Positions 38,413 through 54,240 of a stretch of DNA of 64,000 bases are shown one piece after another; position 1 is the first letter of the stretch; the number at the start of each line of letters is the position of its first letter. The stretch covers positions 2,743,566-2,807,565 of the forward strand of contig NC_021921.1 in the NCBI RefSeq assembly GCF_000470655.1, read 5' to 3'. A program made the position numbers and the translations under genes. The notes below the pieces were generated by a model. That model saw nothing but the letters and a program-made list of their open reading frames with translations, was not told the origin of the DNA and searched no databases. The stretch comes from Halorhabdus tiamatea SARL4B (GTDB lineage: Archaea; Halobacteriota; Halobacteria; Halobacteriales; Haloarculaceae).

Positions 38413-38488
38413 GGCTGGTGGATTACGCGGTCAACTCCTTAAACAAACGGTTGTTGCTGGGCGAGCCCCATCGCAGGAGAGGTAGCAA

Positions 38489-38498
38489 ACCTTATTGG
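38489..38498 (+). promoter_or_regulatory. TATA-like promoter of the lrp-aminotransferase pair
   Basis: ACCTTATTGG lies about 28 bases upstream of the ATG at 38521, the spacing for a leaderless transcript. Confidence 0.5.
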
Positions 38499-38520
38499 CG
38501 ACCCTCGCGGGTCGGTGCAT

Positions 38521-39009
38521 ATGGACAGTCGCGACGAACTCCTGGAGTTGCTTCGAGAGAACGCCCGGTACTCGACGGCCGAACTCGCCCGATTGGCCGA
38601 CATGGACGAAGACGCTGTCGAGGAGACGATCGCCGACCTCGAAGCCGCCGGGGCACTCCGGGGCTACCAGGCCGTCGTCGACTGGGGTGCGCTCGATCGG
38701 GAGCGCGTACGCGCGACGGTAGAACTCAACGTCACGCTCGATCGCGAGACCAGCTACAGCGACATCGCCGACCGGATCGTGAAGTACCCCGAAGTCACCA
38801 CGCTGCGGCTGATGAGCGGCGACTACGACTTCCTCATGGAGGTGGAGGGCGACTCGATGAGCGAGGTGTCGTGGTTCATCAGCGAGAAGGTCGCGCCGAT
38901 CCCCGAGATCACCCAGACCGTGACGCATTACGTGATGGACTCCTACAAGGAGAACGGCATCGAGTTCGGCGACGGCGACGACGACGATCGTCTCTCGATC
39001 TCGCCATGA
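38521..39009 (+). CDS. Lrp/AsnC-family transcription regulator
   Basis: About 162 residues. The N-terminal winged HTH (YSTAELARLADMDEDAVEETI) and the RAM domain (TLRLMSGDYDFLMEVEGDSM) are clear. It overlaps the aminotransferase gene by four bases (ATGA), so the two are co-translated, suggesting that this regulator controls or senses the amino acid its partner handles. An in-frame ATG six bases earlier (38515) is less well placed relative to the TATA-like box. Confidence 0.9.
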   Translation: MDSRDELLELLRENARYSTAELARLADMDEDAVEETIADLEAAGALRGYQAVVDWGALDRERVRATVELNVTLDRETSYSDIADRIVKYPEVTTLRLMSGDYDFLMEVEGDSMSEVSWFISEKVAPIPEITQTVTHYVMDSYKENGIEFGDGDDDDRLSISP

Positions 39010-40151
39010 CCCTCGAGCCCTCCCAGCGTGCCGAGGCGGTGCCGCCCTCGGGGATCCGGCGGTTCTTCGAACTCGCCGAACAACAGGACGACATCATCTC
39101 CCTTGGCGTGGGCGAACCCGACTTCTCGGCCCCCTGGAGCGCGCGTGAATCCGCGATCGCCTCCCTAGAGCAGGGAAAGACCTCCTATACGGCCAATCGT
39201 GGCAAACTCGAACTCCGCGAGGCGATCGCCGAAACCGTCGATCGACGTTACGATCTCACCTACGATCCCGACGACGAGATCCTGGTCACGACCGGCGTCA
39301 GCGAGGCGCTGGATCTCGCGCTCAGAGCGATCGTCGATCCCGGCGACACCGTCGCGATCGCGAAGCCGGCGTACGTCTCCTACGAACCCGGCGTGATCTT
39401 CGCCGGCGGCGAACCGCTGTCAGTGCCGACCAGACGTGAAGACGAGTTCACGCTGACGCCTGCCGTCCTGGCCGAACACGGCGCGAGCGAGGCTGACGTC
39501 CTCGTCATGAACTACCCGAACAACCCCACGGGCGCGACGATGACCCGCGAGGAACTCGCCGGCGTGGCCGAGTTCGCCCGCGAGCACGACCTCGCGGTCC
39601 TGAGCGACGAGGTCTACTCGGAGCTGAGTTACGAGCACGACCACACCTCGATCGCGACGCTGCCGGGCATGCGCGAGCGGACGATCGTCTTCAACGGGTT
39701 CTCGAAAGCCTACGCGATGACTGGCCTTCGACTCGGGTACGCACTCGGACCGCCGGACGTGATCCGGGCGATGAACCGCATCCACCAGTACACGATGCTT
39801 TCGGCACCCACGACGGCCCAGTACGCGGCTATCGAGGCCCTTCGTCGGTGTGACGACGACGTCACCGAGATGCGAAATCAGTACAACCGGCGACGCCGGT
39901 TCGTCCTTTCGCGCTTCGAGGAGATGGGCGTCGACTGTTTTCCGGCCAGCGGCGCGTTCTACGCCTTCCCGGAGTCACCGTGGGACGACAGCGAGGCGTT
40001 TGCCGAAGCGTTACTGGAGGCAGAGGGCGTCGCGATCGTGCCGGGGACGGCCTTCGGCGAGGCAGGCGCGAATCACCTCCGGGTCTCCTACGCGACGGGG
40101 CTGGGTGACCTCAAGGAGGCCCTGGCACGCTTTGAGTCGTTCGTCTCTTGA
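39006..40151 (+). CDS. PLP-dependent class I/II aminotransferase
   Basis: 381 residues. Fold-type I aminotransferase with NYPNNPTGA, DEVYSELSY and the PLP-binding lysine in FNGFSKAYAMTGLRLGYA; an arginine near the C terminus (HLRVSYA) is expected to bind the substrate carboxylate. It resembles AspC/alanine-type archaeal aminotransferases, but substrate choice cannot be read. It begins within the stop codon of the Lrp gene (ATGA), which fixes the start. Confidence 0.92.
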   Translation: MTLEPSQRAEAVPPSGIRRFFELAEQQDDIISLGVGEPDFSAPWSARESAIASLEQGKTSYTANRGKLELREAIAETVDRRYDLTYDPDDEILVTTGVSEALDLALRAIVDPGDTVAIAKPAYVSYEPGVIFAGGEPLSVPTRREDEFTLTPAVLAEHGASEADVLVMNYPNNPTGATMTREELAGVAEFAREHDLAVLSDEVYSELSYEHDHTSIATLPGMRERTIVFNGFSKAYAMTGLRLGYALGPPDVIRAMNRIHQYTMLSAPTTAQYAAIEALRRCDDDVTEMRNQYNRRRRFVLSRFEEMGVDCFPASGAFYAFPESPWDDSEAFAEALLEAEGVAIVPGTAFGEAGANHLRVSYATGLGDLKEALARFESFVS

Positions 40152-40246
40152 TTCTCTAGTTTCGGTTCTTCGGTGTCGCTGTCTGACGCTGATGTGACAC
40201 GCGTCTTACGTAAACTTTTTTCGTCCGAGTGAGAGAACTAAGGGCA

Positions 40247-42781
40247 ATGGCAATTGATGATGAAAGTGGTGGGGGCGACACGATTCGGTCGCGGGCCACC
40301 TCGCTGTTCGGGGACAGCGACGACGAACAAACCAACGAGGGCGGTGACGAAGCCGCCTACGACTGGGTCGATTTTCGGCGTGAGTTCCACGACGGGGGAG
40401 CCTTCGACCGGAGCGAGTACCTCGGGTTCGATCCGCATCGAACAGCCGCGATCCTCCAGGAACACGCGAGTGACGCAAAGACGCTGAACACACACTGGCA
40501 GGACTTCGTCGATCCCGAGACCACGCCGGTCGTCAGGGGAACGTATCTTTGGGAACACTTCAAACAGGAATACTACTACGAACCGGACGGGTCAGTCCCG
40601 CGTGACGACGAGGGGGAGCAGATCGATTTCGAGAAGCGCGACCATCTCGGGTTCGAACCCGACGAAATCGAGGGTCGATTGAGTCACGGTCAGAACCTGG
40701 CGGACGAACTCGCGGATTTCGTCGACGAACGGACGGTCGACGTCAACGAGGACCTCGACGAGGACGCGTTCTTCTCGACGGTCGAGGGCCACACGACGGT
40801 GGTCAACCGCTACGACCTCGAGCGGGCCGTCCCGATGGAGAAAAAGCTCCATTTCGAGGAAGTCGAGCGCTACTGGGTCAACAAACCCTACGCCTGCGTC
40901 ATCCTCTTTCACTCGAAAAAGGAGAACGAGCGAAAGTACTACGTCATCGAACCAGCGCTCAACGACATCGAGCGCGAGTTGAAGGACTTCCTTGGGAACA
41001 AGCTCAAGACGGCCATCAAGTACGCGGAAGAGGGGGTCAGCGTCGAGGACGGTGAGGTCGATCGGGCCGGCGTCATCGAACGTGAGGCCCAGGACCTCCT
41101 CGCGCGCTACGACATCTACGAGGAGCCGATCCAAACGGATGCTGGCATGGGTTCGACCGAGTGGCTCAAGGGGCTGGTGGGGATGGACACCGAGACCGAC
41201 GCGATCGAACCGGTCGCGGAGTCGAATGGTCTCGACGGGATCTCGGCGCGACCGGAACCGGCGATCCTCGCGGACGATCCCGACACGCTCAACGAATACC
41301 AGGTCGAGAAGCTGCTTTACTTTCTCAAGCGTGATTACATCGGCTACAGCAAGATCGACCCGATCAAACACGACATCAACGTCGAGGACATCTCGTGTGA
41401 CGGGTACAACTCCCGGGTGTTCGCCTATCACACCGACTACGAGCAGACCATCACCAACGTCGAGCACGGCGAGAGCGACCTCGACGACTTCGTGGTGAAA
41501 CTCGCCCAGCGTTCCGGGAAGGGTATCTCAAAGCGCCAACCGCAGGTCGACGCGACCCTGCCCGACGGCTCGCGTGCCCAGCTCACTCTGGGGCGGGAGG
41601 TCTCCGATCACGGGACCAACTACACGATCCGGCAGTTCAAGGACGTCCCGTTCACGCCGGTGGACCTCATCAACTGGAACACATTCAGCTTAGACGAGAT
41701 GGCGTTCCTCTGGCTCGCGATCGAGAACAACAAGTCGATGATCTTCGCGGGCGGGACGGCGTCGGGGAAGACGACCTCGCTGAACGCGATTTCGCTTTTC
41801 ATCCCCAGCAACGCGAAGATCGTCTCTATCGAAGACACCCGCGAGGTCGAACTCCCACAGCGCAACTGGGTCGCCAGCGTGACCCGTCCGTCCTTCGGGG
41901 AGGACCAGACCGGCGACATCGACGAGTTCGACTTGCTCGAAGCGGCACTCCGTCAGCGTCCGGATTACATCGTCATGGGCGAGGTCCGTGGTGAAGAGGG
42001 GCGTGACCTCTTTCAGGTCATGTCGACCGGTCACACCGGGTACTCGACGTTCCACGCCGACACCGTCGGGGAGGTCATCAAACGGTTCACGACCGATCCA
42101 ATCAACGTTTCGAAGACCCTCTTCACCGCGCTGGATCTCGTGTCGATCCAGACCCAGACCCGGGTACAGGGTCGGAAAGTCCGCCGGAACAAGACCCTGA
42201 CCGAGATCAACGAGTACTCTCCGGAGAACGACGAGATCAACGTCAGGGACGTCTACCAGTGGCAGGCTGAATCCGACGAGTTCCTCCAGATGGGCTCTTC
42301 GAGCACCCTAGAGGAGATCAAGTTCGACCGCGGGTGGGATCAGGACACCCTCGACGAGGAGCTGTTCATGCGGAAAGTGGTCCTCGCGTACCTCATCGAG
42401 CAGGGACTGAACACCTACACCGAGGTGGCAGCGACGCTGCAGGCGTTCATCAACGATCCGAAGACGATCATGACGCTGATCGCCAACGACCAACTCGCAC
42501 ATAGCCTCGAGGATCTCCGGGAGATGGAGTCCGTCCAGATCGAGGTCGACCCGGAAAAGGAGGAGATGGTGCCCCGACCGGACCCGCCAGACGAGTTACT
42601 GACAGAGGCCGAGGACGTCCTCGAGAACGCGACGCCGCTGTTCGACCGGTACAAAGACCAGGCCCGGAGTGACATCGTGAGCGCGCTGGCCGACGACGGG
42701 GTCGATGAAGGGGACGATGAGACCGTCGACTTCGGTCGGTTCGTGCCGAAAGCCGGCTCCGACGGGGTCGAAGAGGCATGA
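40247..42781 (+). CDS. pilB: Type IV pilus assembly ATPase (PilB/FlaI/GspE family)
   Basis: About 844 residues from the ATG at 40247; a GTG six codons earlier is possible. The ATPase powers extrusion of pilins. The long N-terminal acidic domain (to about residue 330) is typical of haloarchaeal PilB3-type enzymes. The secretion ATPase core has Walker A AGGTASGKTTSLN (about 501-510), an Asp box near EDTREVELP, Walker B-like YIVMGEVRGEE (about 573) and a His box (TGHTGYSTFHAD). A TATA-like patch at 40210-40219 fits the ATG at 40247. It overlaps the downstream pilC by four bases. Confidence 0.93.
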   Translation: MAIDDESGGGDTIRSRATSLFGDSDDEQTNEGGDEAAYDWVDFRREFHDGGAFDRSEYLGFDPHRTAAILQEHASDAKTLNTHWQDFVDPETTPVVRGTYLWEHFKQEYYYEPDGSVPRDDEGEQIDFEKRDHLGFEPDEIEGRLSHGQNLADELADFVDERTVDVNEDLDEDAFFSTVEGHTTVVNRYDLERAVPMEKKLHFEEVERYWVNKPYACVILFHSKKENERKYYVIEPALNDIERELKDFLGNKLKTAIKYAEEGVSVEDGEVDRAGVIEREAQDLLARYDIYEEPIQTDAGMGSTEWLKGLVGMDTETDAIEPVAESNGLDGISARPEPAILADDPDTLNEYQVEKLLYFLKRDYIGYSKIDPIKHDINVEDISCDGYNSRVFAYHTDYEQTITNVEHGESDLDDFVVKLAQRSGKGISKRQPQVDATLPDGSRAQLTLGREVSDHGTNYTIRQFKDVPFTPVDLINWNTFSLDEMAFLWLAIENNKSMIFAGGTASGKTTSLNAISLFIPSNAKIVSIEDTREVELPQRNWVASVTRPSFGEDQTGDIDEFDLLEAALRQRPDYIVMGEVRGEEGRDLFQVMSTGHTGYSTFHADTVGEVIKRFTTDPINVSKTLFTALDLVSIQTQTRVQGRKVRRNKTLTEINEYSPENDEINVRDVYQWQAESDEFLQMGSSSTLEEIKFDRGWDQDTLDEELFMRKVVLAYLIEQGLNTYTEVAATLQAFINDPKTIMTLIANDQLAHSLEDLREMESVQIEVDPEKEEMVPRPDPPDELLTEAEDVLENATPLFDRYKDQARSDIVSALADDGVDEGDDETVDFGRFVPKAGSDGVEEA

Positions 42782-44817
42782 GCTTACAGACGCGTCAGGC
42801 AGGGTCGCCGATCGGTGAGGCCGGGGGTCTCGGCGATACGTTTTACCCGTTTTTTCGCCGACTGTTCGACGAGGACGGCGACTTCGTCGCCAACGTCGAG
42901 ACGAAACTGGCGGAAGCCCGCATGGCCGACAACGTCGAGATGTTCCTCTCGCGGGCGCTTGCCGTCGGTACGATCGCCGGCACGTCGCTGTGGCTGGTCG
43001 GCATGTTGCTCGGCTATCTGCTGGTGGCGACGCTGTTCGCCGATCAGATGCCGTCGTTTCTCGGGCTTGGCCTCCCCAGGAGCGTGCTCCCCATCATTCA
43101 GGCGCTAAAGCTCCCGTTCCTGATGGTCGTTTCGGGGCTGTTGTTCGGAACGATCGGGTTCGCTGTCGGGTTCGGGTCGCTGGTCTCGATCCCGTACTTC
43201 CGGGCGAGTGCTCGCGAACGCGAGATCAACGTGATGCTTTCGGACGCCGTCTCCTTTATGTACGCGCTGTCGGTCGGTGGGCTCAATCAACTCGACATCC
43301 TCGAAGCGATCGCGGAAGCCGACGACACGTACGGTGAGGTCGCAAAGGAGTTCCAGAGCATCGTTCTGGAGACGACGTACTTCGATACGGACTACCGGAC
43401 GGCGATCAGAAATCAGGCGATTCAGACACCGAGCGACGAGTTGAGTCAGTTCCTGACGGACATGCTCTCGATCGTCGACTCCGGCGGGGACATGACGTCG
43501 TTCCTCGAGGACCAGAAGAACAAGTACATGCGCACGAGCAAGCAGACCCAGGAGCGCATGCTCGAGACCCTCGAGTTGTTCGGGGAGATGTACATGACGC
43601 TATCGCTGTTCCCGCTGCTGCTCATCATCATCCTCGTCGTGATGAGTATGATGGGCAACGCGAGTACCCAACTCATGTATATTACCGTCTATGGGTTGAT
43701 CCCGATGATCAACGTCGCCTTCCTCGTGTTGGTTTCGACGGTCACTTCAGACGAGAGCAGCGACGGCTTCCTGCTCCCGGACGATCCCAAAAAGCGCGCC
43801 CAGATCGAGGGCGAGACGGACCTCTTCAGCCTCGGTCTGATCGAGCAGTATACGGATGGGTACAACATTTTCGATCGAATCAACGACCGCGAGGGGACTC
43901 ATCAGGTACTAGAGATCCTGAAAGCGCCCCACATTTTCCTTCGGGACAACCCGCCGTACGTGCTCGCGGTGACAATCCCCATCACGCTGGTGGCGTTGAT
44001 GGTTGCCGTGGTGGTGGGATGGGCACCGACGTCTCTTGGGGGGATGCAATCCGATCCGCTTCAGGGGACGTTCTTCTGGCTGTACATGCCGGCCTACATC
44101 AACTTCATTCCGTTGTCGATCTTCCACGAGTGGAACGTCCGCTACCGCCGCTCGATCATCGGCAAACTCTCGGAGAACCTCCGGAAACTCTCGAGTGCCA
44201 ACGAGACGGGGATGACGCTGCTCGAATCGCTTGACATCGTCGCCCAGACGTCCTCGGGACGCCTCGCAGACGAGTTTTCGGTCATGCACCGGAAGGTCAA
44301 CTACGGGACGAACCTCAAACAGGCCCTCCGGGAGTTCAACAACAAGTATCATGTCCCACGTCTCAGCCGAATCGTCAAGCTCATCAGTGAGGCGCAGGAG
44401 GCCTCCAACCAGATCCAGGACGTCCTCTCGACGGCCGCCCAGGCCAGCGAGAACCAGGACGACATCGAACGCGATCGGAAGTCACGGACGCGGATGCAAG
44501 TCGTCATCATCATCATGACGTTCATGACGCTTTTGGGCGTCATCGCCATGCTCAAAGTGCAGTTCTTCGAGACGATGGCCGGCCTCTCGAGTCAGGCCTC
44601 GGGTTCCAGCGGGGCGATGGGCGGCCAGAGCTTCGGGTCGAACATGCCAGGCAACGACATGCTGTCGATGCTGTTCTTCCATGCCGTCTCGTTGCAGGCC
44701 ATCTTCTCGGCCGTCATCGCCGGATACATCAGGAACGTTCGGATCATCTCCGGACTGAAGTACGCGGTCGCGTTGATGACCGTGTCTCTCGTGGTGTGGA
44801 TTGCCGTCGGGGGATAG
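42778..44817 (+). CDS. pilC: Type IV pilus platform membrane protein (PilC/TadC-like)
   Basis: 679 residues. Two T2SF-type cytoplasmic domains are separated and flanked by membrane helices (about nine hydrophobic segments). In type IV pili this protein forms the inner-membrane platform on the ATPase. The layout with two repeats is the haloarchaeal PilC3 form. ATGA overlap with pilB shows co-translation. It converges with the pilin-like operon on the minus strand, ending 25 bases from its last stop. The regulated partner pilins are likely those neighbours. Confidence 0.9.
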   Translation: MSLQTRQAGSPIGEAGGLGDTFYPFFRRLFDEDGDFVANVETKLAEARMADNVEMFLSRALAVGTIAGTSLWLVGMLLGYLLVATLFADQMPSFLGLGLPRSVLPIIQALKLPFLMVVSGLLFGTIGFAVGFGSLVSIPYFRASAREREINVMLSDAVSFMYALSVGGLNQLDILEAIAEADDTYGEVAKEFQSIVLETTYFDTDYRTAIRNQAIQTPSDELSQFLTDMLSIVDSGGDMTSFLEDQKNKYMRTSKQTQERMLETLELFGEMYMTLSLFPLLLIIILVVMSMMGNASTQLMYITVYGLIPMINVAFLVLVSTVTSDESSDGFLLPDDPKKRAQIEGETDLFSLGLIEQYTDGYNIFDRINDREGTHQVLEILKAPHIFLRDNPPYVLAVTIPITLVALMVAVVVGWAPTSLGGMQSDPLQGTFFWLYMPAYINFIPLSIFHEWNVRYRRSIIGKLSENLRKLSSANETGMTLLESLDIVAQTSSGRLADEFSVMHRKVNYGTNLKQALREFNNKYHVPRLSRIVKLISEAQEASNQIQDVLSTAAQASENQDDIERDRKSRTRMQVVIIIMTFMTLLGVIAMLKVQFFETMAGLSSQASGSSGAMGGQSFGSNMPGNDMLSMLFFHAVSLQAIFSAVIAGYIRNVRIISGLKYAVALMTVSLVVWIAVGG

Positions 44818-44842: not shown

Positions 44843-45709
44843 CTACTCCATCGGATAACTGAGTTCGATCGTGACGACCCGTATCAACACATCGTCGTTA
44901 TTTTCGCAGACTCCTTTCGTGTCTCCGGTATTCCAACTCCAGCCGTCGGCATTCTCGAAGAATTGCTTCCACTGCTCGGGATGGGCCGTCTTCGAGACGT
45001 CGAGTTCGATATCGAGGTCGACACTGGGATCACGACGGTGGATCCGGTCCTGATCGACGAGTTCAGCCTCGAACGTGGCGTATTCGTTGTTCGGAGCGAA
45101 CGGAACCGAATCAGGGACGTTTGACGGCTGGATCGCGTATTCATTGCTGAAGACACCCGTCTCGTAAATCGACTCGTCCGTTGTCAGGTTGACGAGTGAC
45201 ACGATTGTGGTCTCATCGGGCGAACATGTGATCGAGGGACTGTACCGCGGCGTGGCGTAGTCAGTCCGGAAGACGCCGCCACCTTCGTAGGCGATCTGTA
45301 CTGTGCGGTCGGATCGCTCAAAGCGGGTTTCTAAGGCTCCAATCGAAACCTCGGCAGTATTGGCGGTTCCGCTGATGGCGCGTAGGTCCACCTGGGAACT
45401 TTCGATCGTGATGTTTGTCCGGTTGAAGAAGAGGTGTCCGTCGCCCGGAGAGATATCGAACTGCCGGTACGCGTCCCCACTTCGATGAATCTCATCCAGT
45501 GTTGAGGCGACAGCCTGTGTGCCACGATCGTTATTCTGGATGTGTTGGGTGCCGGCGAGGTCGACGAGTGACCCGACGGCGAACATAGAGACGAGCGAGA
45601 CGCTGACGATGATGATCGAGAAGGTGAGCGTGAACGCGACGACGTCGGAGAGCGCCCGCTCATCGAGTGGTTTCCCCGCAACGACCGTGGTGGGGAGGTA
45701 CTGCTTCAT
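44843..45709 (-). CDS. Pilin-like secreted protein, last gene of the operon
   Basis: About 288 residues from the ATG at 45709, which overlaps the preceding stop by one base. The N terminus, DERALSDVVAFTLTFSIII, has a short charged leader then a long hydrophobic helix, the pattern of archaeal class III (type IV pilin) signals; the giant protein at 48616 has a similar DERSVSEILG motif. The rest is an extracellular beta-rich region with N-glycosylation sequons and several cysteines. It is likely a minor pilin-like subunit handled by PilB/PilC. Confidence 0.75.
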   Translation of the reverse strand: MKQYLPTTVVAGKPLDERALSDVVAFTLTFSIIIVSVSLVSMFAVGSLVDLAGTQHIQNNDRGTQAVASTLDEIHRSGDAYRQFDISPGDGHLFFNRTNITIESSQVDLRAISGTANTAEVSIGALETRFERSDRTVQIAYEGGGVFRTDYATPRYSPSITCSPDETTIVSLVNLTTDESIYETGVFSNEYAIQPSNVPDSVPFAPNNEYATFEAELVDQDRIHRRDPSVDLDIELDVSKTAHPEQWKQFFENADGWSWNTGDTKGVCENNDDVLIRVVTIELSYPME

Positions 45710-46206
45710 CAGGAGCACCCCCCAAGCGTGATCGATCCATCACAAAGCGAGATGGTGATCTCCGGGCCCGAATCCTGTGCCGGATCGATACCGGCCTTGG
45801 TTTCGAGTTCGCGAGTGATGGACTGATCGAGACGAGGGACACGCACCTCGAGAACCGCCGGATCACCATTCCCGCGAAGATCAACCTGGTAATTATACGA
45901 TCCCATGATGCGGTCTGGATAGCTCAGCGTTACGTTGAGGCTGGCGGCCTCACCGTTCGCTGCGAGGCGATCGACCGTGTTGATGTGGGATAGTATGTCT
46001 CCGTTGATCTCCGAGACCTGATCGTGACTGATACGCTCCTCCTGACTGTCGAGCAGTGCGCCCGACGCATTGAGCAAGCCTATCAACAGCACACCCGTAA
46101 TCGCGATGGTGAGCCCGTGTGTGATTGCGACCGACACACCACGGGTATCTCCAGTGAAGGACTCGGATCGTCGGTCGAACGACGGCCATCCTGACCAGTC
46201 CCTCAT
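45709..46206 (-). CDS. Pilin-like protein
   Basis: 165 residues. A hydrophilic leader ends in TRGVSVAITHGLTIAITG, starting a hydrophobic helix (about residues 24-46) like archaeal pilin N termini. The remainder is extracellular and ends with a Cys-containing strand. I recall similar haloarchaeal families carrying DUF72xx labels but cannot assign one with certainty. It shares a four-base overlap with the upstream gene. Confidence 0.72.
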   Translation of the reverse strand: MRDWSGWPSFDRRSESFTGDTRGVSVAITHGLTIAITGVLLIGLLNASGALLDSQEERISHDQVSEINGDILSHINTVDRLAANGEAASLNVTLSYPDRIMGSYNYQVDLRGNGDPAVLEVRVPRLDQSITRELETKAGIDPAQDSGPEITISLCDGSITLGGCS

Positions 46207-47099
46207 GATCCGCTCACCTCGAATAGCGTGAACTGCGTTTCGTACGTGACGCTTGGATCTGCCGTCCTGACGATGAACGTCGGATTGAGGTCCATGCCTG
46301 CATCGTCAACACACGGGACGGATCCAGATCCACATGTGGCCCCCTCGGCAGATATTTCGATGGTCGAACCCACGGACGTGGAGCTGTCGTGGAGCGTTAC
46401 GTTGTTGAAGTCGCCGAAGTCGACGTTGGCATTGCCATAGAAATCGTCTACTGTCCTGATTTCACCGGTGCCATTGTGGAAATCCACCTGGACAAAGCTA
46501 CTGGTGTTGAACGTGTGGATGTCACTGCCGTTAAATTCGACGCTGGTACTCGTCACGTTCAGGAACCGGCTCGTGTTCGTGTCTGTGTCGTTGAATTCGA
46601 GTGTGAGGTCGGTGGTTGCGTTCAGCGAAACCAGCGGTGCCTTCCCATCTGCATCTTCCAGGAGCGTTTCACTGCCGCTCAATGACATACTTCCACTCCC
46701 GCTGTAATACGTGAGCGCACCCTCCACGGCAGCACTGTGGTTATACGTGACGTTGACGACCATCGCCCGATCGGTGCTGGCGAGATCGTTGTACTCGGTT
46801 TCGATGCTTTTGACGACGCTTTTAAGATGGGTCTGATCGGCGTACGCGAGTCGATTATCGTTCGTTGTCATTTCGCTGGCATTCGCGGCAAGGAACGCGG
46901 TTCGGAGTTCGTCACGGAGCTCTGTCGCACTTCGATCGGTATCCGCAAGACCCGATGCGTCAGAACGAACGGTGACGTCAGGTGAGGTATGGACAGTGTT
47001 GAGCAGGACCACACTGGCGAGTACTGTCAGGGCGATCATGAGTGCGGCAATCACGACAAGTTGTCCTCGGTCGCCTCCGGGACCGCCCCTGGTTACCAT
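46203..47099 (-). CDS. Pilin-like protein with long Thr/Ser/Asn-rich ectodomain
   Basis: 298 residues. GGDRGQLVVIAALMIALTVL near the N terminus is a short charged leader plus hydrophobic helix, resembling haloarchaeal pilin-like families (DUF7261 by memory). The ectodomain is rich in D, N, S, T and carries many N-x-S/T sequons, so heavy glycosylation is likely. It overlaps the upstream gene by seven bases and the downstream one by four. The role as a minor pilin or surface subunit is inferred from motif and context. Confidence 0.73.
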   Translation of the reverse strand: MVTRGGPGGDRGQLVVIAALMIALTVLASVVLLNTVHTSPDVTVRSDASGLADTDRSATELRDELRTAFLAANASEMTTNDNRLAYADQTHLKSVVKSIETEYNDLASTDRAMVVNVTYNHSAAVEGALTYYSGSGSMSLSGSETLLEDADGKAPLVSLNATTDLTLEFNDTDTNTSRFLNVTSTSVEFNGSDIHTFNTSSFVQVDFHNGTGEIRTVDDFYGNANVDFGDFNNVTLHDSSTSVGSTIEISAEGATCGSGSVPCVDDAGMDLNPTFIVRTADPSVTYETQFTLFEVSGS

Positions 47100-47665
47100 A
47101 CGATCACCCGGAGTTTGACCATGCCGTAGACCTCACTGTCCGTGTCGTGATCCTCGATATAGAACTCGTCGCTACTGGCGTTTTCGAGTGTCGTCCCTGT
47201 TGGCACACACGTCTCACCGCTTCGAACCTGATCCGTATCGTACATCACAACCTGTTCCGTCACTGTTCCTGTCGCGCGCTGCGGTGCCGACCGACTCATC
47301 AACGATTTGGTCCGGACAACTCCGCTGGCGTTGATGAACTCAAGCTCAATAGTGTACGTGCCACGATTCTCGAGTGTCTCGTCCAGCAACGCTCCGAATG
47401 CCGTGTCGGGTGGATCACCGGGGCTCAGCATCGCCGGTTCGCCATCGCTGTCGACGCAGGCTACCGTCGAGTGAATGCGGTCGTCTTCTCGGGCGATATG
47501 CATGACGTCGGCCGCTTGGGTTTCGATTTCCGCAAGATGTCCACCGGCGTTGCTCGCTGGTGTCACGTCGACGATCTGCATCCCCAAGATGAGGGCGATT
47601 CCGATAATGAGTACCCCGATAACCCCTTCGAGGGCGTAAGCTTGCCCCCTCGTAGTCCCCTTCAT
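47093..47665 (-). CDS. Pilin-like protein
   Basis: 190 residues. The N terminus TTRGQAYALEGVIGVLIIGI matches haloarchaeal small pilin-like proteins (DUF7288 by memory): a leader of a few residues, R-G-Q, then a hydrophobic helix. A soluble ectodomain of about 150 residues contains two cysteines. It is coupled to both neighbours (1-base gap upstream, 7-base overlap downstream). Confidence 0.75.
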   Translation of the reverse strand: MKGTTRGQAYALEGVIGVLIIGIALILGMQIVDVTPASNAGGHLAEIETQAADVMHIAREDDRIHSTVACVDSDGEPAMLSPGDPPDTAFGALLDETLENRGTYTIELEFINASGVVRTKSLMSRSAPQRATGTVTEQVVMYDTDQVRSGETCVPTGTTLENASSDEFYIEDHDTDSEVYGMVKLRVIVW

Positions 47666-47666
47666 A

Positions 47667-48113
47667 TTACCACACCCGGACGACTAGGTCACAGGCAGTT
47701 GTACAGTTGTCGAGATTCCCTGCCTGGGTTGTTCGGACGGTCCGGACACTGCTAGCGAGTGGTTTTCCGGACGGCTCGGACGGCCCCCCGCTCGCTTCGA
47801 TCGTTCCGGATCTACGTAGCGTGAGGTTGACTTTGCGCAAGTCTGGGACGCCACTTCGGTCTTTAAGCTCTGCCAGGTACTTGGCCGTGAATGTTCCAGT
47901 ACTCACGTTGAGGGTCCGCTCTCCAGTGGTCGTAGCATTCGTCTCGATGACCTCGGCCGCAAGCTGGTCGGCCATCTTGTCCTGATCGCTCGATACCGGA
48001 TCGAAGAACGGATCGAACACCTGTGGAAACAGCCAGAAGACAGCCGTTATCGCGATCAGGAGGAGCGATATCCCGAGCAGATAGTCGTAGGTCGTTTGAC
48101 CACGTACACTCAT
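47667..48113 (-). CDS. Pilin-like protein, first of the operon
   Basis: About 148 residues from the ATG at 48113. The N terminus SVRGQTTYDYLLGISLLLIA is a short R-G-Q leader and hydrophobic helix, typical of haloarchaeal pilin-like proteins (DUF7287 by memory). The frame stays open upstream to 48560, through the MITE-like repeat, but that part lacks pilin character, so the ATG at 48113 is preferred. The one-base spacing to the next gene makes this the first cistron of the five-gene operon. Confidence 0.75.
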   Translation of the reverse strand: MSVRGQTTYDYLLGISLLLIAITAVFWLFPQVFDPFFDPVSSDQDKMADQLAAEVIETNATTTGERTLNVSTGTFTAKYLAELKDRSGVPDLRKVNLTLRRSGTIEASGGPSEPSGKPLASSVRTVRTTQAGNLDNCTTACDLVVRVW

Positions 48114-48133
48114 GTATTCCCTACCGTTGATTG

Positions 48134-48213
48134 ATACTGCCGGCTGTAACAACCCGACGGAATTCCCCACCACGGGGCGACAGATCTGTTTGCGAACTCG
48201 CCACCGGTAGTAC
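48134..48213. mobile_element. MITE-like inverted-repeat element, copy B (degenerate)
   Basis: Begins ATACTGCCGGCTGTAA like copy C at 54510. The right end, near GAACTCGCCACCGGTAGTAC, is a decayed version of copy C's right end. The centre also shares GGAATTC and CCACCAC-type sequence. It sits directly upstream of the pilin-operon start codon. Confidence 0.65.
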
Positions 48214-48565
48214 GAGGGCACACTCTCGGTCCGTTCGACGTTTTCATCCTCTCCGTGCCCCGCTGATTCGGTTGCTTCTTCAATTGTTGTACGTTCACGT
48301 GATCCATTCCCCTCGATGCGTGACGACGCCAGCATCTCGCTGGATCCGGATGGGCCCATCGACGTAGCCTTTCCATCTCGATATCCGGAATCCCCCTCGG
48401 AGTCCGTGTCACGTATATGCGTGTCAATACGGCGACTCCATACTTTAATCCTCCCATCGATCGTTGCTTCGTTCTCGTACTGCCGTTCTGCACTTGATAC
48501 CCCAATACGGCTCATCACTGCCTTATTAAATCTCTCCACAGTTGTCTGAATAAAATACACATCTG

Positions 48566-48575
48566 GTTATATAGA
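48566..48575 (-). promoter_or_regulatory. TATA-like promoter reading toward the pilin operon
   Basis: On the minus strand this is TCTATATAAC. The predicted start of transcription is near 48545, giving about 430 bases of leader before the ATG at 48113 unless the upstream frame is translated. Confidence 0.5.
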
Positions 48576-48579
48576 TAAC

Positions 48580-48589
48580 GTTTATATCC
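48580..48589 (+). promoter_or_regulatory. TATA-like promoter of the giant adhesin gene
   Basis: GTTTATATCC is about 31 bases upstream of the ATG at 48616, the leaderless spacing. It is back to back with the minus-strand promoter at 48566-48575, so the two units may be co-regulated. Confidence 0.6.
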
Positions 48590-48615
48590 TTACAAGGCGT
48601 ACAATTTTAATCAAT

Positions 48616-51600
48616 ATGGGGAATCGGACAACAAGGGGACAGTACGACGAGATCTGTGCTGACGAGCGAAGTGTTTCGGAGATCCTCGGGACGATTCTGA
48701 TATTTTCGTTCGTGATTTTCCTGGCGGTCGGTCTGATCGTGATCGGGTTACACGCTTTCGAGGGGGCGACAGCCCAGACCGAGGACCGTCTCGCACAGGA
48801 CTCGATGCAGGAGATGGGAAATCGCTTGCATTCACTGACAGGCAGTCAGATCGATACCGCAACCGAGTTCGAATTTCCGACCGGGACTGGGGACGATATC
48901 AAAGCACTCGACGAGGGGACTGTAAATGTCAGTATTAAGACCGATCCAGATTATGTTGGACTCGTAGAAGCCAGCAACCAAAGCAATTACACAAGGATCG
49001 ATCTCGGCACCATCGAGCACGAAGCGGCGGACGGCACCGTAACTGCCTATCAAGGGGGTGCACTGTTCGAAAAGCAGGGGGATCTCATCGAGATTGTCCA
49101 GGAACCGACGTTCGATTACAGGGGAGAGGTGGTCGATCTATCGTTCCGATCGGTAAATCTCTCTCAGATGTCGGATTCGGAGTCTATCACGGCAAAACGC
49201 CTGCTCGAGAAGTCCGCGAATCAGTCCGAACAGATTCGGGAGATGATGCGCCCGCACTGGAATCTGACAGGCTATAGCGACATCATGGCACCGGTCACGA
49301 TCAAAGTCACGATCGAAAGTGAGTACGCCGATGCCTGGCAGATGTACGCCGAAAATCGGATGACTGAGACGCCTACTGTCAATCGGATTAGTTCGAACGA
49401 AGTCGAGATCGTCTTCGACAAGTTCGACGGCGGCTTCACGTTAACGAATCAGACGTTCGACGACGGCGTCTTCTATTCCGGAGAGGCAGCATTGACTGGG
49501 CTGGTCAACGTCTCGAACGCGACGATCGATGGTTTGGGCGGGAAAGTTAACGTGTCTTCTATCAAGGGATCCGGGGCAGGAAGCCCCGTTCCACAGTCAC
49601 AGTATATGTTAGGAATCTACGATGACGGCTTCGACGAATGGCTAATCTACGATACGAGCGGATCTGGGCGATGGTTTAACCTCACCGGTAGTCCAGTCAC
49701 TCCGAGTGCAACCAACGGTGCTGTCACCTCCCTCAATAACGATACCTACCCGATCGACCCGAAAGAAACCTTGACCTGCGTCGTGGAAAGGGACCCCTCT
49801 GGTGGCCCTGACCACGAACAGTTCGTCGACTACGTCGATGCGCCTAACGAAGGCTGTTTGGCAGATCCGCTGGCCAGAAACGTCCCGAAAAACGCCACCG
49901 TCAATCCACATTTCAACGTGTCCTTCGATGACGTCAGGTTGGCCGGGCCGAAGAATATCACCACTGACGACGTCGTCGCCGGACAGGACAAGATCGAGCT
50001 CGAATGGACAGTCGAAAACGACTACGTCAGCAACGGAACGACGCCCGTCGTTCTCCTCTTCAGTGAGGACGGTTCGAGTAACTGGATCCCACTCGATAAA
50101 ACGGACGTCTATCTGGATGGGTATGGTGACAGTAAACCGGGTAGTTTCCAGGTCAACGCGACGGGGAGTAGCAATGTCACGTTCCAGGTGGTCACGCTGG
50201 ATACGAACGACAAGTACGGCCCGGTCGACATCGTCAAACGACCGGAGCGCGGGAAATTCCAGATCGACAGCCTCTCTGTCCCCGATTCGGATCTCACCGC
50301 CGGCGATGATCTCCAGGCCGACGTCGAGATCACCAACACCGCGGCAATCAACGACACCCAGCTGGTCGAGTTACAGTTCGACGACAACAGTGGGAGTGGT
50401 CCGGCGCCAGTCGCCTGGAAGAAAGTGAGCATGAACGCCGGAACGACGAAGACGGTTTCGATCAACTGGACGACCACGAACGCTTTCAACACGTCCAGCG
50501 GCGAGGTGATCGCCGAGACGTATCACGACACTGCATCGGAGAGCCCCATCGAGATCGACAAGGGGATGGCCGCGAACGCGACGTTCGAGGTCGCCATCGA
50601 CAATATCAACCCGAGTCCCATCTGGGACGGCGATTCGGTTACCGTCGACGCGACCGTCGAGAACGTCGGCAGCCAGGCGACCGAGCAGGACATCGCGTTG
50701 CTTGCGGACGGCAAGGTCGTGGACGCGGTACTCGACGAGAATCTCTCGAGTGGCGCGTCAACGACAATGTCCTTCCCGTGGGACAGTACCGGTCACGGTG
50801 GACAAACCGTTGACCTGACCGTGGCAAGCGCGGACGATACCGTGACTCAGCCCGTCACTGTTCAAACGCCAACGCCCACTGACTTCGACGTCAACATCGA
50901 CGAGGTCCGTGTCGACGGTGTGCCTGGCGGTGCGGTGGATCCCGGAAACTCCACGGTGACCGTCGAGGCGACGGTCTCGAACAGCGGCGATAGCGACGCA
51001 CCGACGGTCTGGCTCAACGGCTTCGAGGACAGGGTCGTCGCCGTTGACGACACTGTTCAGACGATCGGACTGCGATCTGGTGATCCGAGTAGCACCAGCG
51101 TGACGTTGCAGTGGAACGTCCCGGCGGACGTCAACACGTCAGATACGGAGATCGAGATCGCGGTCGACGGCGACAGTGAGACGCGAGAGCTCGATATCGA
51201 ATCACGACTGGTGGTCGAGAATATTCAGACGTCGAAGAATACGGCCCAACAAGCTACGTTTACTAATATTTACGTTACTGATAATTCATACGATTGGAGT
51301 CAGCAACCAAGCTCTTTCTCGGTCGATTATAATGTAAACCCTGCAAGTGGGTTCGATCATGTATCATTTGTGTTTGACGGGGCATATAGTTATACGTCAA
51401 AGGATATTCAAAATTCGACCAGTACGACCGGAACTCTGTCTCATTCTCAATCTTACGGGTGGTGGCAGGACTATACGATCACTGGTCGGATCATCGATGA
51501 CGGTAACGTGATCGAAAAAGAGACCTTCAACGTTCTAGCTGACGGGAACGATCGGAACGTCAATGTTTCGGGGGCCAATGTAGTCACCGAATCCGTCGAC

Positions 51601-54240
51601 GTCCAAGCGTACCTCAAGAACATCGGTGACACGACAGCATCCGGACCCGTTGAACTAAAAGACCCCTCCGGCTCAGGTGAGGACACCGCCTACGTCAGTG
51701 GTCTTCCCGGCGGCCAGATGACGATGGTCGACATGACGTGGAACGATCCGACTCGAACGGGTTCGGTGACGGTCGCGACACCCGATGATCAGGCGTCCGA
51801 ACGCGTGGTCATCAAGCGAGACGGACCTGATTGTTCAAACGTGATTTGGACGACAGATTCACAGGGTCGGTACGAAATCAGCAACGTCGACCAATTGCAG
51901 TGTATTCCACAGAACGGTCTCGATGAAGACTACAAACTCGTTGACGATATCGACGCGACTGGCACAAAATATTGGAACAACGGGAAGGGATTCGAGCCGA
52001 TCGGCGATCAGTCTCGAGGTGGTGCCGAGTTCGAGGGCGACTTCGACGGTCAGGGACACAAAATAGAGAACCTCTACATCGACCGTCCGAACGAAAACTT
52101 CGTCGGTCTGTTCGCTGTCGTCCATGACTTCGATGCTGCGAGTTACGTCGGGAGCGGCTCAACGATCGAAAACCTCCGTTTAGAGGGTGTTGACATCCAC
52201 GGGCAGCAGGTCACTGGGGGTGTTGCGGGCGCTACCGGTGGCATCATCGAAAACACCCGAGTCGAAGGTAGAGTCGAAGCCGAATATCAGGAAGTCGGTG
52301 GAATCGTGGGGTCCACCCACAATGCAGACCTGGACAACAGGTTAGTCGTTGATGGCGAAGTCATCGGTGGTATTCCGGCTGGTGCTGTCAACGGGGTTAG
52401 CCATCCCTGGAATGATCGAAATCTCGGAATCGGCGGTATAGTCGGATCGACTGGTTACAACACTGAAGTCTCGACCGTGTACTCCCTCGCGGACGTCAAA
52501 GGTGCGTTCAGCGTCGGCGGTATCGTTGGGTGGACCTCGGACTACGCTAGCGACAACCGGCAGATGTACTGGGCCGGTGACGACATTGTCGTAACTGCGA
52601 CGCAGTCGGAGATCGACGGCTATCTTAATGACCTCGGCCGGACCTCGTACGGGACCGCTACTGGCGGAGCGATTTTCGGCCGGGGTGATGACAACCAGGA
52701 CACGTTCCAAAATAGCGTCTACTACAATAATCAGCATCACCCGTATGGCCTGGGAGAGCACGTCATTGAAGATCAGATCGACATCAACGATCGGACGACT
52801 GACGAGATGATGGGTCTCGGCGTTACCGACCGGGGTAACATGTCAAATCTAGATTACAATGACGAGGGCGGACCCTGGGTCGCGATTCCGGGCGAGTACC
52901 CGCGTTTCCAGTGGGAACTCGAAGCCGAAGGTCGCGTCGGTGTCGACATCGACGAGAGCAGTCTCAATTCCGTCGAGGCTGGCGACCCCTTGGACGTTCC
53001 AGTAACGGTCACGAACAGCAACTACGAAGAGGTCACACAGACGATCCGGCTGTTCGCCGACGGAACTCCGGTCGACAGCACGGAGGTGACGGTTGACGCC
53101 CGGGATCTGGGAGACCCACCCGAAAGCAAGTACCTCTCCAGTGCGCTGACCTGGAATACGAAATCCGACGACGATGGCACGGTACAACTCGAAGTCCGCA
53201 GTGAGGACGCGATCGATACGGAAACGGTCACGATACAGACACCGACGACGGGTGACTACACCGTCGACAGTATCAGTACTACCGGTCCGACGACTGCCGG
53301 CGATGTGCTCACCGTCTACGCTGACATCAACTACACCGGATCGAGTCCCGCCCCCTCTGAACTCGTCACACTGCAGAATTTCGACGGAGGCGTGGTCGAT
53401 AGCAAGAATATCTCTAACGACTGGACCAATTTGCCACTCGAATGGGACACCAGCGAGGGCTTGGTCTCGAGCGGGGCCATCACCGACGATATCACTGTCG
53501 GGACGAGTGACGATTTGGAGACGGAAGAGGTCACGATCCAGGCAGCGGGCGACGGTGACTTCCAGATTCAGAACCTCACCGCGAACGATCCGGTCACGGA
53601 AGGCGATGCGTTAAATATCACCGCCACTGTTGAGAATGTCGGCTCGAAAAACGGAACCCAGAATCTCCTGTTGCGGGACCACGGGGACAGTCCAGTCGAC
53701 ATCACGTCCGTGTCGCTGGATCCGGGCGATTCGACGACCGTCACGCTCACCTGGAACACGGCCGTCGGCGACAACGGTCAGGACGATGTCACCGTGACCA
53801 CCATGGACGACACTGAGACGAAGAATGTGAAAATAGAAGAACAACCCGAGGAGCAACTCGATGTGGTTGTCAAAGAGGTACGTTACAACGGCTCGCAGAT
53901 CTCCAATGGGACGACCGTCGAGGCGGGAGCAACCCTCGAAGCCGACGTCGCAGTCAGCAACGCAACCCAGCCAGTCACGAAGCCGGTGTGGCTCGAGTTC
54001 GCTGGTGAAACGGTCGCGTTCAACTCCGGCGTGACTGTCAATGCGAATTCGAGCCACACCGTGACCCTGACGTGGAACGTTCACGAAGCGATGAATGGTT
54101 CCGATTTGGTGGCGAAGACAGCCCACGATAGTGATCTCTTCGACCTGACGATCGAACCCGTCCGGACGTCGACGATGCCGTTGACGACACCCGGCGGGGA
54201 GCCGATAGACGTCGACCTCGATAAACTCGCAATCGGATAA
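48616..54240 (+). CDS. Giant pilin-type-anchored surface protein (CARDB-like and GLUG domains)
   Basis: 1,874 residues. The N terminus DERSVSEILGTILIFSFVIF (residues 17-36) has the leader and hydrophobic helix of haloarchaeal pilin-like proteins (DUF7289 by memory). Beta-rich ectodomains follow: CARDB-like repeats at about 545-655, 655-755 and 756-860; a divergent AT-rich module at about 866-1070; a GLUG-type beta-helix at about 1073-1435 (KLVDDIDATG, FEGDFDGQGHKIENLYIDRP, repeated VGGIVG); then four more CARDB-like repeats to 1860. There is no C-terminal membrane helix or sorting motif, so the N-terminal helix is the only visible anchor. Many N-glycosylation sequons are present. It may be an adhesin exported by the adjacent PilB/PilC machinery. 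Confidence 0.85.
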   Translation: MGNRTTRGQYDEICADERSVSEILGTILIFSFVIFLAVGLIVIGLHAFEGATAQTEDRLAQDSMQEMGNRLHSLTGSQIDTATEFEFPTGTGDDIKALDEGTVNVSIKTDPDYVGLVEASNQSNYTRIDLGTIEHEAADGTVTAYQGGALFEKQGDLIEIVQEPTFDYRGEVVDLSFRSVNLSQMSDSESITAKRLLEKSANQSEQIREMMRPHWNLTGYSDIMAPVTIKVTIESEYADAWQMYAENRMTETPTVNRISSNEVEIVFDKFDGGFTLTNQTFDDGVFYSGEAALTGLVNVSNATIDGLGGKVNVSSIKGSGAGSPVPQSQYMLGIYDDGFDEWLIYDTSGSGRWFNLTGSPVTPSATNGAVTSLNNDTYPIDPKETLTCVVERDPSGGPDHEQFVDYVDAPNEGCLADPLARNVPKNATVNPHFNVSFDDVRLAGPKNITTDDVVAGQDKIELEWTVENDYVSNGTTPVVLLFSEDGSSNWIPLDKTDVYLDGYGDSKPGSFQVNATGSSNVTFQVVTLDTNDKYGPVDIVKRPERGKFQIDSLSVPDSDLTAGDDLQADVEITNTAAINDTQLVELQFDDNSGSGPAPVAWKKVSMNAGTTKTVSINWTTTNAFNTSSGEVIAETYHDTASESPIEIDKGMAANATFEVAIDNINPSPIWDGDSVTVDATVENVGSQATEQDIALLADGKVVDAVLDENLSSGASTTMSFPWDSTGHGGQTVDLTVASADDTVTQPVTVQTPTPTDFDVNIDEVRVDGVPGGAVDPGNSTVTVEATVSNSGDSDAPTVWLNGFEDRVVAVDDTVQTIGLRSGDPSSTSVTLQWNVPADVNTSDTEIEIAVDGDSETRELDIESRLVVENIQTSKNTAQQATFTNIYVTDNSYDWSQQPSSFSVDYNVNPASGFDHVSFVFDGAYSYTSKDIQNSTSTTGTLSHSQSYGWWQDYTITGRIIDDGNVIEKETFNVLADGNDRNVNVSGANVVTESVDVQAYLKNIGDTTASGPVELKDPSGSGEDTAYVSGLPGGQMTMVDMTWNDPTRTGSVTVATPDDQASERVVIKRDGPDCSNVIWTTDSQGRYEISNVDQLQCIPQNGLDEDYKLVDDIDATGTKYWNNGKGFEPIGDQSRGGAEFEGDFDGQGHKIENLYIDRPNENFVGLFAVVHDFDAASYVGSGSTIENLRLEGVDIHGQQVTGGVAGATGGIIENTRVEGRVEAEYQEVGGIVGSTHNADLDNRLVVDGEVIGGIPAGAVNGVSHPWNDRNLGIGGIVGSTGYNTEVSTVYSLADVKGAFSVGGIVGWTSDYASDNRQMYWAGDDIVVTATQSEIDGYLNDLGRTSYGTATGGAIFGRGDDNQDTFQNSVYYNNQHHPYGLGEHVIEDQIDINDRTTDEMMGLGVTDRGNMSNLDYNDEGGPWVAIPGEYPRFQWELEAEGRVGVDIDESSLNSVEAGDPLDVPVTVTNSNYEEVTQTIRLFADGTPVDSTEVTVDARDLGDPPESKYLSSALTWNTKSDDDGTVQLEVRSEDAIDTETVTIQTPTTGDYTVDSISTTGPTTAGDVLTVYADINYTGSSPAPSELVTLQNFDGGVVDSKNISNDWTNLPLEWDTSEGLVSSGAITDDITVGTSDDLETEEVTIQAAGDGDFQIQNLTANDPVTEGDALNITATVENVGSKNGTQNLLLRDHGDSPVDITSVSLDPGDSTTVTLTWNTAVGDNGQDDVTVTTMDDTETKNVKIEEQPEEQLDVVVKEVRYNGSQISNGTTVEAGATLEADVAVSNATQPVTKPVWLEFAGETVAFNSGVTVNANSSHTVTLTWNVHEAMNGSDLVAKTAHDSDLFDLTIEPVRTSTMPLTTPGGEPIDVDLDKLAIG

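Follow-up and report, generated by a model that had tools for sequence, protein, structure and literature searches.

A giant haloarchaeal protein built on a DUF7289 pilin module: a probable modular type IV pilin encoded beside PilB and PilC

A pilus locus with a divergent giant gene

The window analyzed here is a 64,000-nucleotide stretch of Halorhabdus tiamatea SARL4B (contig NC_021921.1, positions 2,743,566 to 2,807,565), and all coordinates below are counted from its first letter. On the plus strand, a PilB-type secretion ATPase of 850 aa (40229..42781; T2SSE 107 bits, PilB3_C 28 bits), whose N- and C-terminal extensions liken it to PilB4, is followed by a PilC-type membrane platform with two T2SSF domains (42778..44817). 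Five pilin-like genes then lie on the minus strand: a short DUF7289 pilin (44843..45709; 104 bits), a DUF7266 protein (45709..46206; 37.7 bits), a DUF7261 protein (46203..47099; 38.8 bits), a DUF7288 protein (47093..47665; 130 bits) and a DUF7287 protein (47667..48560), the last scoring 93 bits over residues 153-297 of its open reading frame only. Facing away from this set on the plus strand is the giant gene itself (48616..54240). The same combination of PilB, PilC and DUF7289, DUF7266, DUF7261, DUF7288 and DUF7287 genes is also found together in relatives. A member of the prepilin peptidase family is encoded in the genome, PilC-type domains occur in four places of it only, and no PilA-like major pilin was seen among the genes of the giant's locus.

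Several details of the surroundings deserve mention. The DUF7287 gene probably starts internally, near 48113, which would leave about 500 bases (48113-48616) between it and the giant, transcribed the other way. This stretch keeps translated similarity to a congener (G006) and may be a conserved regulatory one. Upstream of the pilus genes, about 200 residues precede the domain in an aminotransferase reading frame (38418-40151), whose start is probably placed too far upstream. Elsewhere in the genome, a 781-aa open frame (L002; G000:C2:201333-203294, minus strand) shares 27% identity with residues 1082-1742 of the giant; it is a separate surface-protein candidate, with a T2SSF domain about 5 kb off, at 208759.

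Architecture of the giant

The sequence-only reading of this DNA had described a 1,874-residue surface protein with a pilin-like N terminus, CARDB-like repeats, a GLUG region, many sequons and nothing resembling a C-terminal anchor, and each of these elements withstood closer analysis. The reading frame begins with ATG and contains no internal stop, and in G006, presumably H. utahensis, its orthologue is likewise intact and 2,267 aa long; the first 295 residues of the two proteins are 83% identical. Residues 1-19 (48616..48672) form a predicted class III leader that carries the motif of its family, with the cut expected after Ser19, between DERS and VSEILG. A serine directly before the predicted cut is found in 7 of 114 family members, the window giant included, and we read the DSAV given for H. 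volcanii PilA2 in a published table as the same case. The pilin-type domain, DUF7289 (PF23960), spans residues 18-273 (48667..49434) and would consist of a long N-terminal helix followed by a beta domain, judging by models of relatives. It was unlisted by the whole-protein Pfam scan and emerged on piecewise scanning, where the N-terminal piece alone reached 51.2 bits against a cut-off of 27; Pilin_N (PF07790) stayed under its own cut-off in Pfam.

Only one hydrophobic segment is present, at the N terminus, with a 19-residue mean hydropathy of 3.1. The hydropathy scan yielded no second segment at or above 1.7, and thus no C-terminal hydrophobic anchor, while comparison with the NCBIfam models, those of PGF-CTERM type included, returned zero matches and hence no sorting motif.

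Beyond the pilin module, CARDB scores 70 bits over the whole protein in Pfam, spread over several stretches, among which residues 662-736 (50599..50823) are the top-scoring of three in the piece scanned and residues 1648-1729 (53557..53802) reach 25.7 bits against a cut-off of 22.7; a weaker candidate at residues 988-1054 (51577..51777) falls below the cut-off at 18 bits. The whole-protein score for GLUG lies just under its cut-off, and a single motif, at residues 1199-1220 (52210..52275), passes (25.3 bits, cut-off 20.5) when its piece is scanned alone. Further weak Pfam matches, such as MS_channel_2nd, DUF4198, Ig_GlcNase and 4HBT, were dismissed as chance or low complexity. Sequons number 39, about twice the shuffled count (20.6 +/- 4.0; maximum 32, n=500). 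By content, the giant has the make-up of a modular pilin: a DUF7289 pilin module joined to CARDB and GLUG, domains that are not specific to pili.

A family of short and long DUF7289 proteins

How general this arrangement is can be judged from a sample of 60 regions from relatives together with the window, the wider set of relatives having been gathered by PilB alignment; a genome-contig search with the N-terminal domain as a single protein gave zero matches. The sample holds 114 DUF7289-domain proteins, of which 44 are short (240-289 aa) and 70 long (376-2,267 aa), and in 110 of them the start keeps a class III motif with R[G/A/S] before the cut and [V/Q]S after it. DUF7289 itself is nearly universal in the class, occurring in 287 of the 292 genomes examined; the long form is less so. 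Other haloarchaeal proteins that join DUF7289 to CARDB or GLUG, for which the sequence-only reading had recommended a search, are found among the 70 long members. Its description of the layout as unusual did not hold: long DUF7289 proteins are common in haloarchaea, and the giant belongs to the known class of modular pilins.

Long members often keep company with pilus genes. Within the fetched regions, PilC accompanies 28 of 69 long relatives and some other gene of the set 47 of 69, and 36 long relatives lie no more than 600 bases from a short DUF7289 gene. Given the four PilC places in the window's genome, proximity of a long member to PilC by chance would be expected in a few per cent of cases. 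Conversely, a long member is within reach at 25 of 80 named PilB loci. Many long relatives are distant from PilB-PilC; some of these may rely on machinery encoded elsewhere, in trans, or may never be assembled. Two further patterns were observed: the PilB4-type loci of Natrialbaceae (L112-L187) mostly carry a short DUF7289 gene, with no long member within reach, and at L041, L042, L093 and L035 long DUF7289 genes stand in tandem pairs or triples away from a detected PilB-PilC set, L041 having adjoining proteins of 1,039 and 998 aa.

The ectodomains of the long members vary widely, and include vWA, CARDB, DUF7305, DUF7308, PPC, TSP_3 and GLUG. For instance, in several Halorhabdus species the giant's place, flanked by the pilin set and EF-2, is taken by a vWA-type protein of 739-790 aa. 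When a model of the 790-aa protein from this slot in Halorhabdus salina was compared with the PDB, the best matches were the pilus adhesins SpaC and PitA and the fourth was the modular pilin PilB of S. sanguinis. These similarities are probably due to the vWA domain that the proteins have in common, and lend support by analogy only. Foldseek with the model of a 507-aa member returned no pilin, only incoherent matches to beta-rich proteins at an rmsd of about 20, and a profile of the long family matched no sequence in the PDB.

A conserved C-terminal strand and the probable insertion of the ectodomain

The end of the giant, PIDVDLDKLAIG (residues 1863-1874; 54202..54237), is conserved, and we interpret it as the strand that completes the pilin domain, on the basis of a motif test with near kin left out and of models of relatives. 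In short DUF7289 pilins, a terminal strand of the form VYVRxxxIxVxF follows immediately on the profiled domain. When a motif learned from the short pilins alone is run along the 70 long proteins, its best score falls at the very end of the chain in 41 of them, with 2.4 expected and no more than 9 in shuffles. The largest long proteins share a related ending, [PVI]IDVDxxxIxI; with a giant-class motif learned without near kin of the protein under test, the C-terminus of the 25 largest ranks best in 19 (0.4 expected) and among the top five in all 25. Among the roughly 1,600 positions of the window giant, the C-terminus comes second by the giant-class motif but only 79th by the short-pilin motif, so that the link between its strand and that of the short pilins runs via its relatives.

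AF2 models of two relatives, computed from alignments that excluded short pilins, agree with this picture. Both show a helix at about residues 19-72 and then a beta domain. The C-terminal strand is modelled about as confidently as the core: its pLDDT is about 93 in the 507-aa member, the middle of which is at about 50, and about 91 in the 790-aa member, although there the neighbouring region is fairly confident too. Taken together, these results make it probable that the pilin domain is interrupted by the adhesin before its last beta-strand, docking of the strand being read from model confidence and secondary structure alone. A C-terminus brought back to the pilin domain would account for the absent C-terminal anchor, and insertion of this kind would be a way to hold a giant protein without one.

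Proposed exchange of pilins and giant between genera

Phylogenies of the locus are discordant. Named relatives of its PilB place the window in or close to Halorhabdus. In quick-search trees with SH-aLRT support only, and with some long branches, PilC of the window falls within Halorhabdus (support 100), whereas the short DUF7289 pilin and the N-terminal domain of the long protein, each together with the first of two gene sets in G006, join Halovenus (support 98 and 99, respectively), away from other Halorhabdus. In G006, PilB-PilC is followed by set 1, which is inverted and includes the giant; next come set 2, with a 650-aa long protein of DUF7305 type, and finally EF-2. The window is without set 2, and in G005 a single set lies directly after PilC. 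The cassette has a G+C content of 56%, against about 60% for the window.

The discordant trees and the two-set arrangement of G006 suggest that the pilins are transferred as one cassette with their tip protein, and their travelling together suggests that they are assembled jointly. Set 2 of G006 in turn diverges from the vWA-type sets of other Halorhabdus, such that more than one exchange may have occurred. We tentatively propose, as a possibility we would rate somewhat short of even, that haloarchaeal pilus-tip cassettes are exchangeable: a giant adhesin housed in a pilin domain and its matched minor pilins would cross genera and use the resident PilB-PilC. If so, the pili of closely related species would have entirely different binding targets. 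Halorhabdus genomes would offer a natural series from before, between and after such exchange, and the proposal yields a testable rule, whereby a swapped cassette should change binding.

A proposed mechanism and its alternatives

The sequence-only reading suggested a very large adhesin fused to a pilin, which the pilus machinery would export and tether or assemble as a pilus tip. That proposal is supported by the leader motif, DUF7289, the adjoining PilB-PilC and five pilin-like genes, the peptidase and the vWA-bearing relatives. We consider it likely that the giant is a modular type IV pilin, presumably a tip pilin, extruded by PilB-PilC with its ectodomain inserted in DUF7289. The pathway we infer would begin with entry of the precursor into the membrane via Sec and cleavage after Ser19 by prepilin peptidase. 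The hydrophobic helix (about residues 20-72) would then enter the filament core alongside the five neighbouring pilin-like proteins, and the PilB-PilC motor would push the assembly out. Roughly 1,590 residues of ectodomain, comprising CARDB Ig-like modules and the GLUG region, would sit ahead of the last DUF7289 beta-strand, the chain leaving the pilin base and coming back to it, such that no C-terminal anchor would be needed. The tip is the position that would best fit such bulk, and from there the ectodomain would be expected to attach to surfaces, polymers or other cells. The pilins and the giant would have been gained jointly, as a cassette next to an older PilB-PilC pair.

The strongest competing explanation, which we nonetheless regard as unlikely, is an adhesin of the cell body, held in the membrane by its N-terminal helix, processed or not, with the pilus machinery serving for exposure only or unused. 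Membrane-associated pilins of H. volcanii lacking pilB3-C3 still give some adhesion, according to a review; about 40 of the 69 long relatives have no PilC in the fetched region; and the giant is far larger than ordinary shaft subunits. Joint assembly is indicated instead by the adjoining PilB-PilC and pilin genes and by the shared inheritance of the giant and the short pilins. A role in a short pseudopilus, pushing or presenting cargo as GspK does in type II secretion, in place of an adhesive pilus, is more improbable by a good measure: the ectodomains of the relatives are adhesion-type modules such as vWA and CARDB, and a secretin-like outer channel is, to our knowledge, not applicable to archaea. 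In GspK the pilin sheet takes up an extra domain, as is proposed for the giant (PMC8179133), and the want of a PilA-like gene at the locus would suit a pseudopilus, although haloarchaeal major pilins are often encoded elsewhere (PMC4858521). Least probable of all is an ordinary Sec-exported or signal-anchored surface glycoprotein with a merely pilin-like start, for which an AxA-like stretch (GATAQ) after the hydrophobic helix and the commonly predicted secretion of large CARDB proteins of Halobacteria could be cited, since R[GAS]-type class III motifs recur in 110 of 114 relatives, DUF7289 scores above its cut-off, and the hydrophobic stretch is long and is predicted to run on as a helix in the relatives' models.

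Comparison with known systems

The likely modular tip pilin finds its nearest archaeal parallel in the PilB4-type haloarchaeal system, which has an extended ATPase and a shared minor pilin, arCOG02911, of variable length (about 250-550 aa) (PMC4858521). As portrayed there, arCOG02911 is likewise FlaFind-positive, beta-rich, duplicated and variable in length, and by this description it is probably the same family as DUF7289; giants, adhesin modules, a C-terminal strand and cassette exchange are not among the features we found described there. According to an older review, a pair of relatively large pilins shares its regulation with PilB4-PilC4 (PMC4371748). The determinants of binding at archaeal pilus tips are poorly known, and the DUF7289 family provides candidates across haloarchaea.

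Large tip pilins are known from bacterial Tad systems. Caulobacter CpaL and the Myxococcus Kil/Tad pilins, too, are minor pilins that carry large modules, and models put them at the pilus tip (PMC12607857, PMC12075869); the Myxococcus system has several exchangeable tips. The likeness is drawn from their published description. The PilY1/PilC tip adhesin shares an adhesive role at the tip and, in some cases, a vWA domain, yet is not a pilin, and Pfam scans of the giant found no beta-propeller domain of PilY1 type.

Modular pilins as a class are established in bacteria (PMC8179133, PMC9934059). In S. sanguinis, for example, PilB (vWA) and PilC (lectin) likewise combine a class III start with a pilin module that bears a separate adhesion module, and vWA also occurs in DUF7289 relatives of the giant. 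In the bacterial survey the most extreme multi-domain case measures 860 aa, against up to 2,267 aa here (PMC8179133, PMC9934059), and the bacterial modules are grafted C-terminally, whereas here insertion before the last pilin strand is probable. GspK, a proposed tip subunit, holds an extra domain in its pilin beta-sheet (PMC8179133), but that insert is one alpha-domain, in contrast to the insertion proposed here, which would comprise Ig-like modules and GLUG over approximately 1,590 residues. In the open-access literature we found no description of such an archaeal version, and no paper on DUF7289 or on class III signals combined with CARDB. Relative to the bacterial modular pilins, what appears to be new is the carrier, an archaeal DUF7289 family with giant members, along with the insertion topology and the cassette exchange that we propose for it.
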